Origin: a virus
Virus record (IMG/VR): IMGVR_UViG_3300037507_002403
Location: 1 to 21,690 of that record
DNA: 21,690 nt
Strand: one strand, 5' to 3'
In this document: positions 1 to 19,801 of the stretch, piece after piece
How positions within the stretch are numbered: the stretch's first letter is position 1
Layout: each line of letters opens with the position of its first letter
Translations under genes and position numbers: made by a program
The notes under the pieces: model-generated
Databases searched by the model: none
The model's input: the letters and a program-made list of their open reading frames with translations, nothing else
What the model was told of the DNA's origin: nothing

Positions 1-684
1 CGGCTTTTCATCGGGCTCGTCGTCCATGTCCTCGTCCTCGTAGCGATCGGGGTAAGCCTTGCGCAGTGCCTTGTCGGCCTTCTCCAGCGCGTCTGCGAAC
101 GGGATGCCGCTATCGACATAGTCCAGCATGACCCGCATCGCGTCCGGGTCGGCGTCGTCGTCCAAGATCCAGGCATGGCCTTCGCTGTAGAAGCGCTTCT
201 GGACTTGGGGATATGACGGGGTGAAAGCCTCGACCCACTCGTCCTCGTCAGCTTCGGGCTCGTCGTCCGCGTCCTCGACGTCCTCGGCTTGGGCAACCTT
301 GGCGTCACGCTCCTTGATGAGCTTCTTCTCGGTCGCCTCGTCGCCTTCCTTGATCGCCTTGCGGATGTACCAGTCGTACTCGCTGTGAAGCTCGGCGATC
401 TCCTTCTCGCGCTGCTTGGTGGATTGCTCCTCCATGCGCTTGATGCGCTTCTCGGTGTCGTTGCGGAGCTTCTTCAGCTCCTTCTCGACGTTCTTTGCCC
501 GTGTGCGCTGGGAGCGGATGAACTCTGCCGCAGAGGCAAAGCCACCCTCGGGAGGATCGCCCTTCCACTCGGTTTCGGGCTTCCAGCCTAGCTCACGCGC
601 GACTGTTTCAAGGTCGTCAGCCTTGGCCTCGGGAGCGTCAGCAACCGGCGCCGGGGCTTCCTGCTCCAGAACGTCGTCGCTCAT
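1..684 (-). CDS. Scaffold-like capsid assembly protein, C-terminus cut by window edge
   Basis: The reading frame is open from an ATG at 684 to the left edge, giving 228 visible residues without a stop. The N-terminus has an acidic leader, then a LGWKPETEWKGDPP segment followed by an AAEFIRSQR-type stretch. That arrangement is typical of internal scaffold/capsid-assembly proteins of podovirus-like phages. A long charged helical stretch (about residues 60-135, rich in K, E and R) looks like a coiled coil, and acidic D/E tracts follow. Its start overlaps the stop of the GroES-like gene by 4 nt (ATGA), so the two are probably translationally coupled. Scaffolds usually precede the major capsid gene, which would lie just beyond the left edge. 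The scaffold role is inferred from composition, motif style and position. Confidence 0.7.
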   Translation of the reverse strand, partial: MSDDVLEQEAPAPVADAPEAKADDLETVARELGWKPETEWKGDPPEGGFASAAEFIRSQRTRAKNVEKELKKLRNDTEKRIKRMEEQSTKQREKEIAELHSEYDWYIRKAIKEGDEATEKKLIKERDAKVAQAEDVEDADDEPEADEDEWVEAFTPSYPQVQKRFYSEGHAWILDDDADPDAMRVMLDYVDSGIPFADALEKADKALRKAYPDRYEDEDMDDEPDEKP

Positions 685-1076
685 GCCGCCACCTTGGCGC
701 TCTCAGCGTCAGCCGTGCGAATGCCGACGATCTCCTTGTCCTTCATCACGCGATAGACACGGCCATCAGCTCCGACGAAGGACTTGCCGGCATAGCGTGC
801 AAACATCACGCGTTCGCCGATCTTCGGGATTGCGTCAGGGTTCGGGAAGTCGTCCTCGTTGAATGCCAGCGGTGAGATGGCGACTAACAGCCCCTCATCC
901 CCGCCCTCGTCTTCACGCTGGGCGCTGGTTTCGGGAACGAAGATACCCGAGGCCCGTTGCCGTTGGACGACACGCGGGAGCACGAGGCAGTTGAACTCAA
1001 GGGGTTTCATCCCCGGATTGGTTTCCTCAACCTTCGGAAGTTTCTCGAAGGTCAGGGTAGAGTGATGCAAGGACAT
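681..1076 (-). CDS. GroES-like co-chaperonin (phage-encoded)
   Basis: This 131-aa protein has the layout of a GroES/Cpn10 fold. A short beta start (FNCLVLPRVV, residues 29-37) is followed by a mobile-loop-like segment, RASGIFVPET (41-50), comparable to the GGI-V/I-x-P loop of GroES that docks on GroEL. Then come a GLLVAISP strand (62-69), IGERVMFARYAGKSF (86-100) and a final RVYRVMKDKEIVGI (106-119), which parallels the closing 'tolerance of YLIMREDDILGI' pattern of GroES. It has an N-terminal extension of about 25 residues and an Ala-rich tail. A purine-rich ribosome site (AAGGGAACAG) precedes the ATG, so this start is kept although it overlaps the upstream gene by 50 nt. Its place beside the scaffold gene suggests a role in capsid protein folding with host GroEL, as T4 gp31 does. 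Confidence 0.75.
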   Translation of the reverse strand: MSLHHSTLTFEKLPKVEETNPGMKPLEFNCLVLPRVVQRQRASGIFVPETSAQREDEGGDEGLLVAISPLAFNEDDFPNPDAIPKIGERVMFARYAGKSFVGADGRVYRVMKDKEIVGIRTADAESAKVAA

Positions 1077-15101: not shown

Positions 15102-15698
15102 TCATGCTCCCTTTTCTAGTTGTTGGATTTCTGCCTTCACGTTCGCGGTTTCAGCTTCGAGATACCGCTGGATTTCGTCGTAGCCCTTGGCGTGGACGTC
15201 ATAGGGGACCATGCCCATTTCCAGCTCGTACTGGCGGTGGTGCAGGTGGGCGATGCGCTCGCGCGGCGACATGCCCTCTTCGCGCTCTTCGACTTCCAGC
15301 GCGAACTCAAGACGGTCGCGAACCGGCGACTCGATCCGCTCAATGAGCGACAGAAGCTGGCCGGGGCTTGGGCGGAAAGCGTTCGCGCCCTTCCGCCATT
15401 CGACAACGGCAGCACGGAACGCAACCGCGCTCACCTGCCCCATGTCCTCAATCCAGTCCTGCGCAACGGTCATGGTGTTACCGGACTGCGGCGAAGGGTA
15501 ATGGGAGAACAATCTGGCTATCGAAGCCGCGATTTCCTCCGGCGTAGGCGGCATCAGCGCCTCGCGCATCTCCGCTATCGATGACTTCAAGGCGGGGAGG
15601 TCCGCTCGGTGGGCGAGCACCATTGCCGTGATCCGGCTCCCATCCTCCGCCACGCTGAGAGCCACTTGCCTGAGCTGCGGCAACTGCGAAGGCATCAT
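15102..15698 (-). CDS. Probable phage replication accessory protein (198 aa)
   Basis: Start chosen at the ATG-ATG pair (15698/15695). The frame is open further upstream, but there it overlaps the DUF1376 gene deeply. No clear ribosome site precedes either ATG. In the 15478-15698 overlap this frame has the higher third-position GC, so it is truly coding there. A central block (residues about 81-114) reads DWIEDMGQVSAVAF, then EWRKGANAFRPSPGQL, a pattern I have seen in proteins next to phage replication genes of alphaproteobacteria. The C-terminus (from about 128) is charged and helical, likely a coiled coil. It may act with the DUF1376 protein in replication start or helicase loading; that is inference. 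Confidence 0.7.
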   Translation of the reverse strand: MMPSQLPQLRQVALSVAEDGSRITAMVLAHRADLPALKSSIAEMREALMPPTPEEIAASIARLFSHYPSPQSGNTMTVAQDWIEDMGQVSAVAFRAAVVEWRKGANAFRPSPGQLLSLIERIESPVRDRLEFALEVEEREEGMSPRERIAHLHHRQYELEMGMVPYDVHAKGYDEIQRYLEAETANVKAEIQQLEKGA

Positions 15699-16503
15699 GC
15701 TGGCTGATTTGCGGGGCAAGGCGGGTTTGGACACGCGCGCCGGCACGGATGGGGGTTCCGTTGGCTCGTGGTCGAGCCCGTAGGATCGTGGGGGCCGCGC
15801 GGCATAGCCAGGACTGCCATGAGCGTGTGTGTCCGGGTCGCCTGCCTTCCGGGTTTCCGGCGTCCCGCTTGTCCAAGAACCAGCGCTTGCACTGATGGGT
15901 TTCATTTTCCGCTTCCTCGCGCGTGAGCTGGATGCCTTTGGTGTTTGTGGGATCGGTCGCCCAAGCGAAGTCCGCTTCAGAAGGCCACCAATCGTCAGCC
16001 ATGAAGTGAGGCTCAACGAGAGGCTTCGAGCGCTTGCGCTTCACAGGCGTATTTAACTCTGATGCTTTAGCATCAGATGTTTCTGTATGTGTCTCTGTCT
16101 CTGTCTTGCCAGAGCATTGCTCTGCCAATGCTGTAGCATTGCTAGGCGCAGTATCTTTTGATTTCCGTGCCTTAGCCTCACCACCCCGACGACCGGCGTT
16201 TTTGCGGCGCTGGTTTTTCTCCGTTGCCTCATCGAAAAACCGCTTCAGCGCGTCGTTGACATAACGCCCCCTGCGGATGGTGAAGAACTCGGTCAGGATC
16301 GGCTTCACGAACGCGGCGAACGTCTCCGCATCGACGCGCATTTGACGCTGCACCCATGCGTCATCGGCGGGGATGGTGCCGCCAGGTGTGCGCCAGCAGA
16401 GGCGAAGCAGGCGCAGGTAGGCGCCATCCTCGCAAAGCGTCAGGTGCGCTGTGTGCGCCTCATACTTCGACACCCACAAAGGCATGTATGGTAGGTCGCT
16501 CAT
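15478..16503 (-). CDS. DUF1376/YdaU-type phage replication protein
   Basis: This 341-aa protein has an N-terminal DUF1376 domain (residues about 1-95): DLPYMPLWVSKYEAHTAHL, LCEDGAYLRLLRLCWRTPGG and a YVNDALKRFFDEA helix. A basic, low-complexity linker (NQRRKNAGRRGGEAKARKSK) and a second domain ending in SWQSWLCRAA (about 215-235) follow. Family members, such as YdaU of the Rac prophage, lie in replication modules and are thought to act in initiation. The last 74 codons overlap the next gene in another frame, where the other frame looks better used. The true C-terminus may therefore be shorter, or there may be a frameshift near 15700-15790. ATG overlaps the HNH stop by 4 nt. Confidence 0.8.
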   Translation of the reverse strand: MSDLPYMPLWVSKYEAHTAHLTLCEDGAYLRLLRLCWRTPGGTIPADDAWVQRQMRVDAETFAAFVKPILTEFFTIRRGRYVNDALKRFFDEATEKNQRRKNAGRRGGEAKARKSKDTAPSNATALAEQCSGKTETETHTETSDAKASELNTPVKRKRSKPLVEPHFMADDWWPSEADFAWATDPTNTKGIQLTREEAENETHQCKRWFLDKRDAGNPEGRRPGHTRSWQSWLCRAAPTILRARPRANGTPIRAGARVQTRLAPQISQHDAFAVAAAQASGSQRGGGWEPDHGNGARPPSGPPRLEVIDSGDARGADAAYAGGNRGFDSQIVLPLPFAAVR

Positions 16504-17359: not shown

Positions 17360-17476
17360 TCACGTTCGGAAAGGGGTCAGCAGCCGGGCGTTGGGGTCCG
17401 GGGGGGATTGGGACGTCCGGCTGCTGTTCGTGCTCTGGTTGGGGGGTGAGCACGAATTGAAATGGGGGTGGGTCAT
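17360..17476 (-). CDS. Possible 38-aa Pro/Ser-rich peptide
   Basis: A short frame begins at an ATG that overlaps the cro-like stop by 4 nt (ATGA) and encodes MTHPHFNSCSPPNQSTNSSR with a Pro/Asn-rich rest. The junction style argues for a gene. The composition, and a 9-bp hairpin and G-runs within the same stretch, argue that this is instead an RNA or DNA structural element. Listed as a low-confidence gene. Confidence 0.3.
   Translation of the reverse strand: MTHPHFNSCSPPNQSTNSSRTSQSPPDPNARLLTPFRT
17393..17412 (+). other. Possible G-quadruplex motif
   Basis: The plus strand has runs of four, seven and three G (17393-17396, 17400-17406, 17410-17412) with 3-nt gaps. The seven-G run can split into two runs, meeting the G3 x4 pattern with loops of 1-3 nt. 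More G-runs follow at 17441-17446, 17464-17468 and 17470-17472. The G-rich strand would be the template for leftward transcription. Confidence 0.4.
17427..17456. promoter_or_regulatory. Perfect 9-bp inverted repeat after the cro-like gene
   Basis: TTCGTGCTC (17427-17435) and GAGCACGAA (17448-17456) form a perfect 9-bp stem with a 12-nt loop, starting about 17 nt after the cro-like stop in the leftward transcript. No T-tract follows, so it is not a normal intrinsic terminator. It could be an antitermination (nut-like) or processing hairpin, or a protein site, since it contains GTGC/GCAC cores like the operators. Confidence 0.55.
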
Positions 17477-17697
17477 GCGGCTACCCTTCCCTTACGGGAA
17501 GCGCGGGAAGCCTCGGGCGCCCAGCTATCGAGCGTCACAGCGCCGTCGGAGACGTCACGAATTACAAGCATCAGCTCGTAAGACGGTGTAACCTTGCCCC
17601 GGCGCAGCTTCGAAATATGTGCGCGGTCACGGCGAAACATGCGCGCCGCTTTGGCGTCATCAATATGCGAAAGCTCTAACCACTTGGCGAATGTCAT
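17473..17697 (-). CDS. Cro-like helix-turn-helix regulator
   Basis: This 74-aa protein starts at ATG 17697 (MTFAKWLELSHIDDAKAARM); a GTG 15 bases earlier lies in the operator with AGG directly against it. A helix-turn-helix fits KAARMFRRDRAHISKLRRGK (about residues 15-34), a Cro/C1 type reading head with a K-L-R-R-G-K turn. It is the first gene of the leftward block, facing away from the repressor gene with the operator between them. This is the classic place for Cro or an early regulator, and it may compete with the repressor for the same sites. The C-terminus is basic. Confidence 0.75.
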   Translation of the reverse strand: MTFAKWLELSHIDDAKAARMFRRDRAHISKLRRGKVTPSYELMLVIRDVSDGAVTLDSWAPEASRASRKGRVAA

Positions 17698-17706
17698 GAC
17701 CGGAAT

Positions 17707-17721
17707 GTGCACCTAGTGCAC
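17707..17721. promoter_or_regulatory. Operator 1 (GTGCAC-N3-GTGCAC)
   Basis: A 15-bp site GTGCACCTAGTGCAC made of two GTGCAC half-sites around CTA. An identical 15-mer occurs at 18166-18180. The flanks (AAT on one side, GTC on the other) match those of the second copy in inverted orientation, making 21-bp inverted relatives on either side of the repressor gene. Confidence 0.7.
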
Positions 17722-17733
17722 GTCGGTCGTCAA
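17707..17733 (-). promoter_or_regulatory. Leftward early promoter with embedded operator
   Basis: On the minus strand a TTGACG (-35-like, 17728-17733) is followed 12 bases from its first base by GTGCAC-TAG-GTGCAC (17707-17721) and then ATT. The dyad would cover the spacer and -10 region, so a bound repressor would block polymerase. The -10 is poor against the E. coli consensus. The rightward promoter at 18154 has the same layout, which supports both. Confidence 0.6.
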
Positions 17734-17750
17734 TAGGGGGCGAGAGAAAT

Positions 17751-17765
17751 GTGCATCACATGCCA
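17751..17765. promoter_or_regulatory. Imperfect operator-like site 2
   Basis: GTGCATCACATGCCA keeps one half-site with a single change (GTGCAT) but a poor second half. It also contains a small dyad ATGTG-CAT-CACAT (17749-17761). It lies 35 nt before the repressor start and could tune the repressor's own promoter. Confidence 0.4.
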
Positions 17766-17799
17766 TAGACGGGAATGAGCGGGGGCGAACGATGCCGCC

Positions 17800-18123
17800 A
17801 TGATCAAGAAGAAACAGCGGCAGCGCATCTTTCTCAAGGAATGGCGCAAGCACCGTGGCATCACCCAAGAAGGGCTTGCCGACCGGATAGGCATTGACCG
17901 CACGATTGTTTCGAAGATCGAGAATGGCAAACTAGACTATCATCAGTCTTTTCTGGAAGCCGCAGCTTATGCGCTGATGTGCGAACCGGCTGACCTGCTC
18001 GTGCGCGATCCCACAGCCCCAGACGCGATCTGGACGATTTGGGACCGCATCCCGCCAGCCGAACGCCCCAAAGCGCAGGCCGTTCTCCAGGCACTCACTA
18101 ACACATCGAAAAAGTCCGCTTGA
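17800..18123 (+). CDS. Short XRE-family repressor (CI-like)
   Basis: This 107-aa protein has an XRE/HTH_3 domain at about residues 11-66: LKEWRKHRGITQEGLADRIG, IDRTIVSKIENGKL (recognition helix), and a following helix pair. It is a DNA-binding repressor in type. There is no C-terminal S24 peptidase or dimerisation domain as in lambda CI, so RecA-driven self-cleavage is not possible; the short tail (PPAERPKAQAVLQAL) is helical. It is flanked by the four operator copies and diverges from the cro-like gene, which fits the lysogeny repressor. The ribosome site is weak (GGGGGCGAAC). An alternative is an early regulator rather than the immunity repressor. Confidence 0.78.
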   Translation: MIKKKQRQRIFLKEWRKHRGITQEGLADRIGIDRTIVSKIENGKLDYHQSFLEAAAYALMCEPADLLVRDPTAPDAIWTIWDRIPPAERPKAQAVLQALTNTSKKSA

Positions 18124-18129
18124 ATAAAA

Positions 18130-18144
18130 GTGCATCCGGTGCAC
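18130..18144. promoter_or_regulatory. Operator-like site 3
   Basis: GTGCATCCGGTGCAC has one perfect and one one-off GTGCAC half-site with the same 3-nt gap. It sits 7 nt after the repressor stop and 36 nt from operator 4, so the two could bind repressor side by side upstream of the right block. Confidence 0.6.
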
Positions 18145-18153
18145 AAATAAAGC

Positions 18154-18183
18154 TTGCAAGGTGACGTGCACCTAGTGCACATT
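18154..18183 (+). promoter_or_regulatory. Rightward early promoter with embedded operator 4
   Basis: TTGCAA (18154-18159) is followed, 12 bases from its first base, by GTGCAC-CTA-GTGCAC (18166-18180) and ATT. This is the same geometry as the leftward promoter: TTG, nine bases ending in GAC, dyad, ATT. The first gene starts at 18211 with GGGAG seven bases before its ATG. Confidence 0.6.
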
Positions 18184-18210
18184 GCTCTCACACCAGTTGG
18201 GAGCCACCAG

Positions 18211-18570
18211 ATGACCTACTCAGCCGACGAATTAGTCCAGATGGCGCTGACCTTCACGCGCCGCACCAGCGAGGCGCTTGCCGCGCTTGAGCTGCCCTCC
18301 CGCACTGACGGCGAGATGTTCGAGGGGATGCTGGATCAGGTCGCGGACAACCTGATGGTCTGCGAGCACGCTTGGGATCTGTTCGCCTCAACAGCGCGCG
18401 AAGAGTTCTTCGGCTCTGACGCATCCGCAACTGATCGCAAGCGTTGGGCTCGTCTTGGCTCTGACGCACGCGAGCAACTGGACCGCTCATGGGCTGCTGA
18501 GTGCGAGGCGGATCGTGCGGACTACTACAACGATCTGGCCCGTGACGAGCGCATGATGGAGGCGCTGTGA
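18211..18570 (+). CDS. Hypothetical 119-aa early protein
   Basis: The ATG at 18211 is chosen because GGGAG lies seven bases upstream; the frame stays open from 18154, but that part covers the operator. The protein is acidic and helical (ELVQMALTFTRRTSEALAAL, DQVADNLMVCEHAWDLFAST) with no metal site or membrane helix. It is the first gene of the rightward block and overlaps the RecT-like gene by 1 nt. I do not recognise the family. It may help the recombination genes that follow, but nothing in the sequence proves it. Confidence 0.7.
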   Translation: MTYSADELVQMALTFTRRTSEALAALELPSRTDGEMFEGMLDQVADNLMVCEHAWDLFASTAREEFFGSDASATDRKRWARLGSDAREQLDRSWAAECEADRADYYNDLARDERMMEAL

Positions 18571-19409
18571 TGGCCGGCGAAGTCGTTCAGTACACCCCCA
18601 ATCAGCCCGCCGCTCGCCGCTCGTTCGATGAGATCAACGCCATGGCCCAAGCCATCGTTGAGTCGAAGCTTTGGGGCCAGACGACGGTTCCGCAAGTCAT
18701 CGCGCTGATGCTGATGGCAGAGGCGGAAGGCCGTCACGTCGCGTCGGCCATGCAGGATTACGTAGTCATCAGCGGCAAGCCGTCACTCAAAGCCGAGGCG
18801 ATGCTTGGCCGCTTTCAGCGTGCCGGTGGTCATGTCCGCTGGACGCATATGACGGACGAGAAGGTCGCTGCGATCTTTTCCCATCCTCAGTGCGATCCTG
18901 TTGAGATTGAATGGGACATGGCGAGGGCTAGGCAAGCGCTTATCGCCAGCCAGATGTGGAAGAAATACCCGCGTCAGATGCTCCGCGCCCGCGTCATCAG
19001 CGAAGGCGTCAGGACAGCATTCCCCGGCGCCCTTGGCGGCATGTACGCCCCTGAAGAGGTGATTGACTTCGAACCCACGCGCTCACCCCCAAACCCAGCG
19101 CGCGGGCAACTGGCGGCTCCCGAGGAACCTGGACAGGTAGAACAGCCTCGGGGGCCGTCCGCTTCTGAACTTGATGGCGAGGAAGTCGATCAGACCACGC
19201 AGCCGGAATGGCCCGTGATGCTTGAGGAGATGGAAGCTTATTCCACGCGCGACGATCTGAAAGCGTGGTGGACGACGCCGGAAAAGAAAGCGCTCAAGGC
19301 CCGTAAGCCGCACATGATGCGCGCCTTCTACCGCTTCGCCTACACGCCGCGCTGGGAAGATTTGGGCGAGGTTGTCGAATGGACTGACGACGCCGGGGCT
19401 CGGGGCTGA
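18570..19409 (+). CDS. RecT-like single-strand annealing protein
   Basis: This 279-aa protein starts at ATG 18570 (TGATG with the previous stop; a GTG at 18567 would add one residue). The core (about residues 30-165) reads VIALMLMAEAEGRHVASAMQ, DYVVISGKPSLKAEAMLGRF, and then MWKKYPRQMLRARVISEGVR with TAFPGALGGMYAPEEV. This is the order found in phage RecT-related proteins with the W-x-KYP-x-x-ML-x-AR signature. Such proteins anneal single strands in phage recombination. The tail (from about 175) is Pro- and Glu-rich and variable. NinB and HNH genes follow directly, forming a recombination set. No exonuclease partner is seen in the window. Confidence 0.72.
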   Translation: MAGEVVQYTPNQPAARRSFDEINAMAQAIVESKLWGQTTVPQVIALMLMAEAEGRHVASAMQDYVVISGKPSLKAEAMLGRFQRAGGHVRWTHMTDEKVAAIFSHPQCDPVEIEWDMARARQALIASQMWKKYPRQMLRARVISEGVRTAFPGALGGMYAPEEVIDFEPTRSPPNPARGQLAAPEEPGQVEQPRGPSASELDGEEVDQTTQPEWPVMLEEMEAYSTRDDLKAWWTTPEKKALKARKPHMMRAFYRFAYTPRWEDLGEVVEWTDDAGARG

Positions 19410-19801
19410 TGGGTCGCGCTTTGCTCGTCCTGCACAACGACGCCATGCGTTCAAAGGCTATCGACTGGATACGCCGCGCGCCAGCGGAAACCCGTGTCAC
19501 GTTCCAAGGCCCGAAGCGCACGCTGGATCAGAACTCGCGTCTTTGGGCAATGCTCACAGAGCTTTCCACGCAGCTTCTCTGGCACGGACAGCGCCTGTCT
19601 ACGGAAGATTGGAAGCAGGTGATGCTCGCGTCTCTGAAGCAGGAAATGCGAATCGTGCCGAACATTCACGGCGACGGCTTCGTCCAGCTTGGCCGGTCAT
19701 CGTCCGATCTGTCGAAGGACGAGATGGCAGACCTGATGACCATCATTGAAGCGTTCGCGGCTCGCTATGGCGTCAAGATGAAGGAGCCTGCCGATGCTTG
19801 A
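19409..19801 (+). CDS. ninB: NinB family recombination protein
   Basis: This 130-aa protein has the NinB/Orf signature: an early RSKAIDWIRRAP, then FQGPKRTLDQNSRLWAMLTE, ending in LSKDEMADLMTIIEAFAARY. Lambda NinB (Orf) binds single-stranded DNA and SSB and can replace RecFOR in phage recombination. It begins with a 1-nt overlap (TGATG) after the RecT-like gene and overlaps the next HNH gene by 8 nt. RecT-like plus NinB fits a single-strand annealing route. Confidence 0.88.
   Translation: MGRALLVLHNDAMRSKAIDWIRRAPAETRVTFQGPKRTLDQNSRLWAMLTELSTQLLWHGQRLSTEDWKQVMLASLKQEMRIVPNIHGDGFVQLGRSSSDLSKDEMADLMTIIEAFAARYGVKMKEPADA

Follow-up and report, generated by a model that had tools for sequence, protein, structure and literature searches.

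The window analysed here is a 21,690-base virus record (IMG/VR IMGVR_UViG_3300037507_002403, positions 1-21,690), in which two small regulatory genes diverge from a 102-bp gap. The leftward gene, cro-like (17473-17697, minus strand), encodes a 74-aa protein with helix-3 residues DRAHISKL, and the rightward gene, rep (17800-18123, plus strand), encodes a 107-aa protein with helix-3 residues DRTIVSKI. Both fall within the XRE or Cro/CI helix-turn-helix (HTH) fold with an HTH_3-type domain: Rep matches HTH_3 (PF01381, 1.5e-10), and a profile comparison with the PDB hits P22 c2 and 434 Cro/CI; Cro has zero Pfam matches, but is modelled as a helical HTH (pLDDT 82), and the fold matches listed for it are nearly all XRE-type HTH proteins, all weak (best E 0.85). 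The structure model of Rep was too poor (pLDDT 54) and was set aside. Rep has HTH matches only, its C-terminus showing neither S24 nor another family domain; the lack of S24 was counted against the reading of the locus as a switch. Beyond rep, a rightward operon on the plus strand comprises a 119-aa gene of unknown family (18211-18570), a RecT-like annealing protein (18567-19409; phrog_561, 9.8e-18; PF03837) and a NinB recombination mediator (19409-19801; PF05772, 2e-33). In the leftward direction, that of cro, lies a gene assigned by family matches as DUF1376/primosomal protein (15478-16503, minus strand). The 21.7-kb window, which is a fragment, contains no integrase, and this was also counted against a switch. 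A GroES-like co-chaperonin gene was observed among the structural genes (681-1076, minus strand; phrog_3188).

Four putative operators, O1 to O4, surround rep. The exact 15-mer GTGCACCTAGTGCAC is found at 17707-17721 (O1) and again at 18166-18180 (O4); GTGCATCCGGTGCAC at 18130-18144 (O3), 36 bp upstream of O4, differs from it by three mismatches, and GTGCATCACATGCCA at 17751-17765 (O2) by more than three. O1 and O2 lie within the gap between the divergent cro and rep, and O3 and O4 lie beyond rep, followed by RecT and NinB, forming a second operator region at the recombination operon. A scan for the 15-mer with up to three mismatches gave six strand-matches at three places, against 0.57 ± 0.73 expected, and 0 of 100 shuffles reached six; GTG-N9-CAC occurs three times between 17697 and 18211, against 0.16 expected. 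A chance repeat as the origin of the 15-mers was ruled out by the shuffles and by conservation. The first-pass annotation had placed the 15-mer at 17707 and 18166, on either side of the repressor gene, with near-copies at 17751 and 18130. The exact copies are present far above chance and both near-copies were borne out, that at 17751 being the more divergent, yet kept in form in all close relatives. O2 remains a weak match to the operator consensus, which was counted against the switch.

Among eight close relatives, the window included, the GTGCAC half-sites are kept in 8/8 at O1 with a variable centre, and the form of O2, GTGCA-N5-TGCCA, is likewise kept in all eight while its middle varies; O3 reads GTGCACGCGGTGCAC in one relative (L061). 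Comparison thus gives the putative operator the form GTGCAC-N3-GTGCAC with its three central bases free, and the least variable part of the unit is GCA. Of the 15-mer proposed as the signal, the half-sites therefore stood and the central CTA did not, since TAG, CTA and TGA all occur among close relatives. A search for the 15-mer in related phages, which the first-pass annotation had suggested, found the exact sequence in 52 IMG/VR stretches: seven are close relatives, recovered independently, six of which carry a pair of copies at a distance of 459 bp; the remaining 45 are single-copy, and none of them appeared among the Cro or Rep relatives. The exact 15-mer is thus not the unit of conservation, and its candidacy as a widespread phage signal was rejected.

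O1 and O4 are each embedded in a promoter-like sequence. The leftward promoter, ahead of cro, has a -35-like TTGACG (17728-17733, minus strand), where TTGAC also stands in the majority of the distant relatives, and a -10-like CACATT (17704-17709, minus strand), six bases from the ATG of cro. The rightward promoter, ahead of the RecT operon, has a -35-like TTGCAA (18154-18159, plus strand; from the sequence) and a -10-like CACATT (18178-18183, plus strand), with a Shine-Dalgarno-like GGGAG (18199-18203, plus strand) ahead of the ATG at 18211. In both, the spacer is 18 bp and the -10 consists of the last CAC of the operator plus ATT, so that O1 and O4 overlap the -10 of their promoters. The leftward order is TTG-ACGACCGAC-dyad-ATT and the rightward order TTG-CAAGGTGAC-dyad-ATT; along the direction of transcription, GAC-GTGCAC-nnn-GTGCAC-ATT is identical at 18 of 21 bases, the differing three being the dyad centre. 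The arrangement first described, with TTG, nine bases ending in GAC, the dyad and ATT facing both left and right, was therefore correct in order and flanks, but nine bases between TTG and the dyad is not a general rule, as the offset is roughly 7-9 in relatives. Both -10 hexamers are poor (3/6 consensus) and a strict sigma-70 scan finds zero promoters at this region because of the poor CACATT; each result was counted against the switch. The ATG of cro lies only six bases past the -10 and lacks a Shine-Dalgarno sequence, and so the cro mRNA is likely to be leaderless. O2 would overlap a possible -10 of rep, CATAGA at 17764-17769.

Inverted repeats such as these could fold as RNA hairpins, and TTTTATT follows the 18130 site in the leftward reading, which would suit hairpins or terminators, or else replication iterons, rather than operators. 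However, that site is the sole terminator-like match, with an expected number of 1.0, and no T-run is present in the rightward direction; at both promoters transcription is inferred to start beyond the dyad, which would therefore be missing from the RNA. On both strands, the half-sites are moreover conserved together with a TTGAC whose distance hardly varies, and the array consists of a few inverted copies that centre on promoters. The hairpin or terminator was rejected as a candidate, and an origin of the repeats as hairpins or iterons is extremely improbable.

The array extends to phages that are more distant. In 22 distant relatives, which are all those whose promoter region could be aligned and whose Cro is about 60-70% identical, the interval from cro to the neighbouring gene contains three 6-3-6 sites at a near-constant spacing of about 33-35 bp, and TTGAC -35s are mostly kept on both sides of the array. 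Where a homologue of the 119-aa protein is recognisable beside Cro in these relatives, it is directly divergent from cro, as is the case in several phages with Cro only. Rep was found in 5/5 close records searched and in 0/15 distant records searched, suggesting that Cro is the constant reader of the array. A tyrosine integrase is present in 5/5 Rep-bearing close records (29.9-39.9 kb) and was found in 0/7 records without Rep, several of which are fragments and one of which, G017, is complete. G017 (loci L126 and L127; IMGVR_UViG_3300043409_000626) is 39.2 kb long, complete by a 127-bp end repeat, and possesses Cro, the operator array and P22-like structural genes (portal and coat), with no integrase, no Rep and nothing that passes the family cut-off for HTH_3. 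Its virion genes exhibit little similarity to those of the window, and the control region therefore appears mobile between different types of virion.

The persistence of the array in distant phages where Rep was not found would suit a reading in which Cro alone binds the sites and the 107-aa protein is a passenger that acts elsewhere, for instance on host genes. Phage-borne XRE regulators broadly of this type are reported to target host genes, and RtrA, CdxA and TgrL of Caulobacter and phage phiCbK to act on genes for host adhesion and the GTA (PMC10688885). Against this stand the integrase in every Rep-bearing record examined, the DNA-facing helix-3 residues common to Rep and its Cro, and the sites around cellular Rep orthologues. 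The nearest cellular relatives of Rep are in Caulobacteraceae metagenome-assembled genomes (up to 57% identical), and on three contigs (L140, L141 and L142) an orthologue 53-57% identical to Rep stands between 15-bp GTG-N9-CAC dyads, with no divergent Cro detectable beside it. The right-flank dyad follows closely behind TTGAC, and a plausible -10 begins with the CAC at the end of this dyad. Rep itself therefore probably reads dyads of the GTG-N9-CAC type, and a passenger role for Rep is unlikely.

These dyads without Cro could equally be taken to mean that Rep alone reads the array and that the 74-aa protein regulates something else. This reading is very improbable, given that the sites persist directly upstream of cro in relatives where Rep was not found, and that they also occur in Sphingomonad prophages that carry a related Cro and a different repressor, CI. 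These prophages were obtained by searching Sphingomonadales with the Cro alignment, and the CI gene is divergent from cro. In 5/5 of the Sphingomonad loci, three GTGC-N7-GCAC-type sites, some with a mismatch, lie between Cro and CI, and in 4/5 two more sites, 34 bp apart, lie beyond CI and the one to three genes after it. In L191 both sides carry an identical 15-mer, GTGCATCTAATGCAC, which is an independent parallel to the window. The helix-3 residues of these Cros follow [DE]R[ST]..[SN][KR]; GTGC-N7-GCAC-type sites were absent from loci where Cro has other helix-3 residues (L183, L188 and L189). The Sphingomonad prophages (L191-L194) thus resemble the window in operator class, in a homologous Cro and in lambda topology, with three plus two sites, but differ in that the repressor is CI and not the 107-aa Rep; an S24 domain is present in the CI of L178/L192 and of L194, and the 152-aa CI of L191 has no S24 match. 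Between CI and the OL-type operators, three of the prophages have a HIRAN-domain gene (L192, 3070-3462; L193, 7130-7498, minus strand; L194, 3688-4101), which holds the place of rex in lambda.

The nearest kin of the two proteins differ: Rep leads to Caulobacteraceae, and Cro and the operators lead to Sphingomonadales. No named relative of Cro was found directly in INPHARED, only via the Sphingomonad Cro; none was found in a collection of genome contigs (genome_contigs) or in 398 Caulobacterales genomes, the latter in a search that ran without a positive control.

Other phages combine the same layout with different operators. In Paracoccus phage vB_PthS_Pthi1 and the rhizobial phages PBC5, RHph_I1_23 and ppBjS10J-1, a small Rep-like or CI-like repressor is divergent from a Cro-like gene and one operator is repeated on both repressor flanks, as in the window, whereas the operators themselves are CAGGAATATTCCTG, TTTCAGTCA and CCTACC-N5-GGTAGG, in step with other helix-3 residues. 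In Nostoc phage Nsp-JY21 (L198), the helix-3 residues of repressor and Cro were likewise observed to match (SYISD and SYLSD), and GTTCAC-type repeats flank the repressor on either side.

Matching between the recognition helices was scored in 19 Cro/repressor pairs, with helix 3 aligned by hand to residues 27-34 of 434 repressor on conserved hydrophobic positions and positions 27, 28, 29, 32 and 33 (434 repressor numbering) taken as DNA-facing; the L182 pair, whose CI helix was only partly read, was left out. At these positions Cro and its own repressor are identical at a fraction of 0.64, compared with 0.31 for shuffled partners, and 0 of 50,000 shuffles were as high (P<2e-5). As controls, the eleven residues before helix 3 gave 0.29 in the 19 pairs and 0.29 when shuffled (P 0.58), and the buried helix-3 residues exhibited no within-pair excess (P 0.89). 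A deduplicated set of 11 pairs gave the same outcome. Because relatedness varies among the pairs and the alignment is a manual one, the P values serve as guides. Common ancestry of cro and the repressor would have raised the controls too, and the within-pair match is therefore best explained by selection for reading one shared operator, suggesting that in many such phages both switch proteins have come to share their DNA-reading residues.

Taken as operators, the four sites very probably belong to a lambda-type lysis/lysogeny switch read by both Cro and Rep, and the 74-aa Cro-like protein and the 107-aa Rep are together the most likely readers. The sites, their geometry and conservation, the gene content and the helix-3 matching are observed by sequence and comparison, and from these we infer operator binding, the order of occupancy, the transcription starts and the role of Rep as the lysogeny repressor. 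Cro and Rep would each bind as a dimer to a pair of GTGCAC half-sites separated by three bases. O1 and O4 occupy the spacer between -35 and -10 and run into the start of the -10, and a bound dimer would thereby occlude polymerase and shut the promoter. O2 covers the start region of rep, where binding, probably by Cro, would tune or shut rep, much as Cro in lambda shuts the repressor gene at OR3. O3, about three helical turns from O4, is probably an auxiliary site comparable to the paired OL sites of the Sphingomonad prophages. In a lysogen, Rep would keep the two early promoters silent; during the lytic cycle, Cro would limit rep as well as the recombination operon and the operon to which cro itself belongs. 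The first-pass annotation had proposed one repressor switching PL and PR. A switch with matched operators at two early promoters is backed by the comparison, but it likely has two readers, and the promoter names were exchanged: by analogy with lambda, the leftward, cro-driving promoter would be the PR equivalent and the rightward, RecT/NinB-driving promoter the PL equivalent.

The likeness to phage lambda (OL-rex-cI-OR-cro) is extensive. As in lambda, a divergent repressor and cro, both HTH proteins, have putative operators between them, and a second operator region lies on the far side of the repressor, so that the repressor is flanked by two regions whose operators overlap promoters; recombination genes stand under the operator region beyond the repressor, and a replication-type gene lies downstream of cro. 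The window differs from lambda in its 15-bp GTGCAC-N3-GTGCAC sites, in a 107-aa repressor without an S24 domain, in a cro mRNA that is probably leaderless and in its number of sites, two plus two as opposed to three plus three, which falls short of the three sites per region of a lambda-type immunity region. The telomere phages N15, phiKO2 and PY54, compared from their published description, also pair a small Cro with a prophage repressor (CB/CI) on related palindromic operators at immB; N15 and phiKO2 have three OR and two OL sites, and the PY54 operator is 16 bp (PMC4488713). RtrA, CdxA and TgrL, likened to Rep by family description only, are XRE-family regulators common to Alphaproteobacteria and their phages (PMC10688885), and these Caulobacter and phiCbK proteins may represent the wider family of Rep; in a check of kinship between Rep and CdxA/TgrL, phiCbK was not among the matches listed and Caulobacter was not among the organism tallies listed.

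The switch is hence of a known kind, and its operator class is one for which no description was found: a full-text literature search returned none of a phage operator with GTGCAC, and the literature searched contained none of the Sphingomonad CI/Cro prophages. The original impression that the 15-bp operator was unfamiliar from other phages agrees with this search, but the class is also present in Cro-only phages and in the Sphingomonad CI/Cro prophages. The repressor differs by group, being an S24-type CI in Sphingomonad prophages, the 107-aa Rep in the group of the window, and none in phages of the 39-kb G017 type. Tentatively, and with slightly less than an even chance of being correct, Cro and the operators may form a stable core to which the lysogeny repressor is exchangeable, each incoming repressor converging with the resident Cro at those residues of the recognition helix that face the DNA, with Cro alone running early control in integrase-free phages.

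The phage family with this switch is a little-known one of Alphaproteobacteria. For phages of Alphaproteobacteria, in which few described switches were found, the locus provides a lambda-type switch whose putative operators are defined and whose recognition code can be tested. The matching of Cro and repressor helices, which the control residues do not share, might make it possible to predict an operator from the sequences of the proteins. Worth following are the matched recognition helices, the operator class and the phages that have Cro only. Cro-only, Rep-bearing and S24-CI-bearing phages on one operator class would constitute a natural series for the gain and loss of lysogeny while the operators stay fixed.
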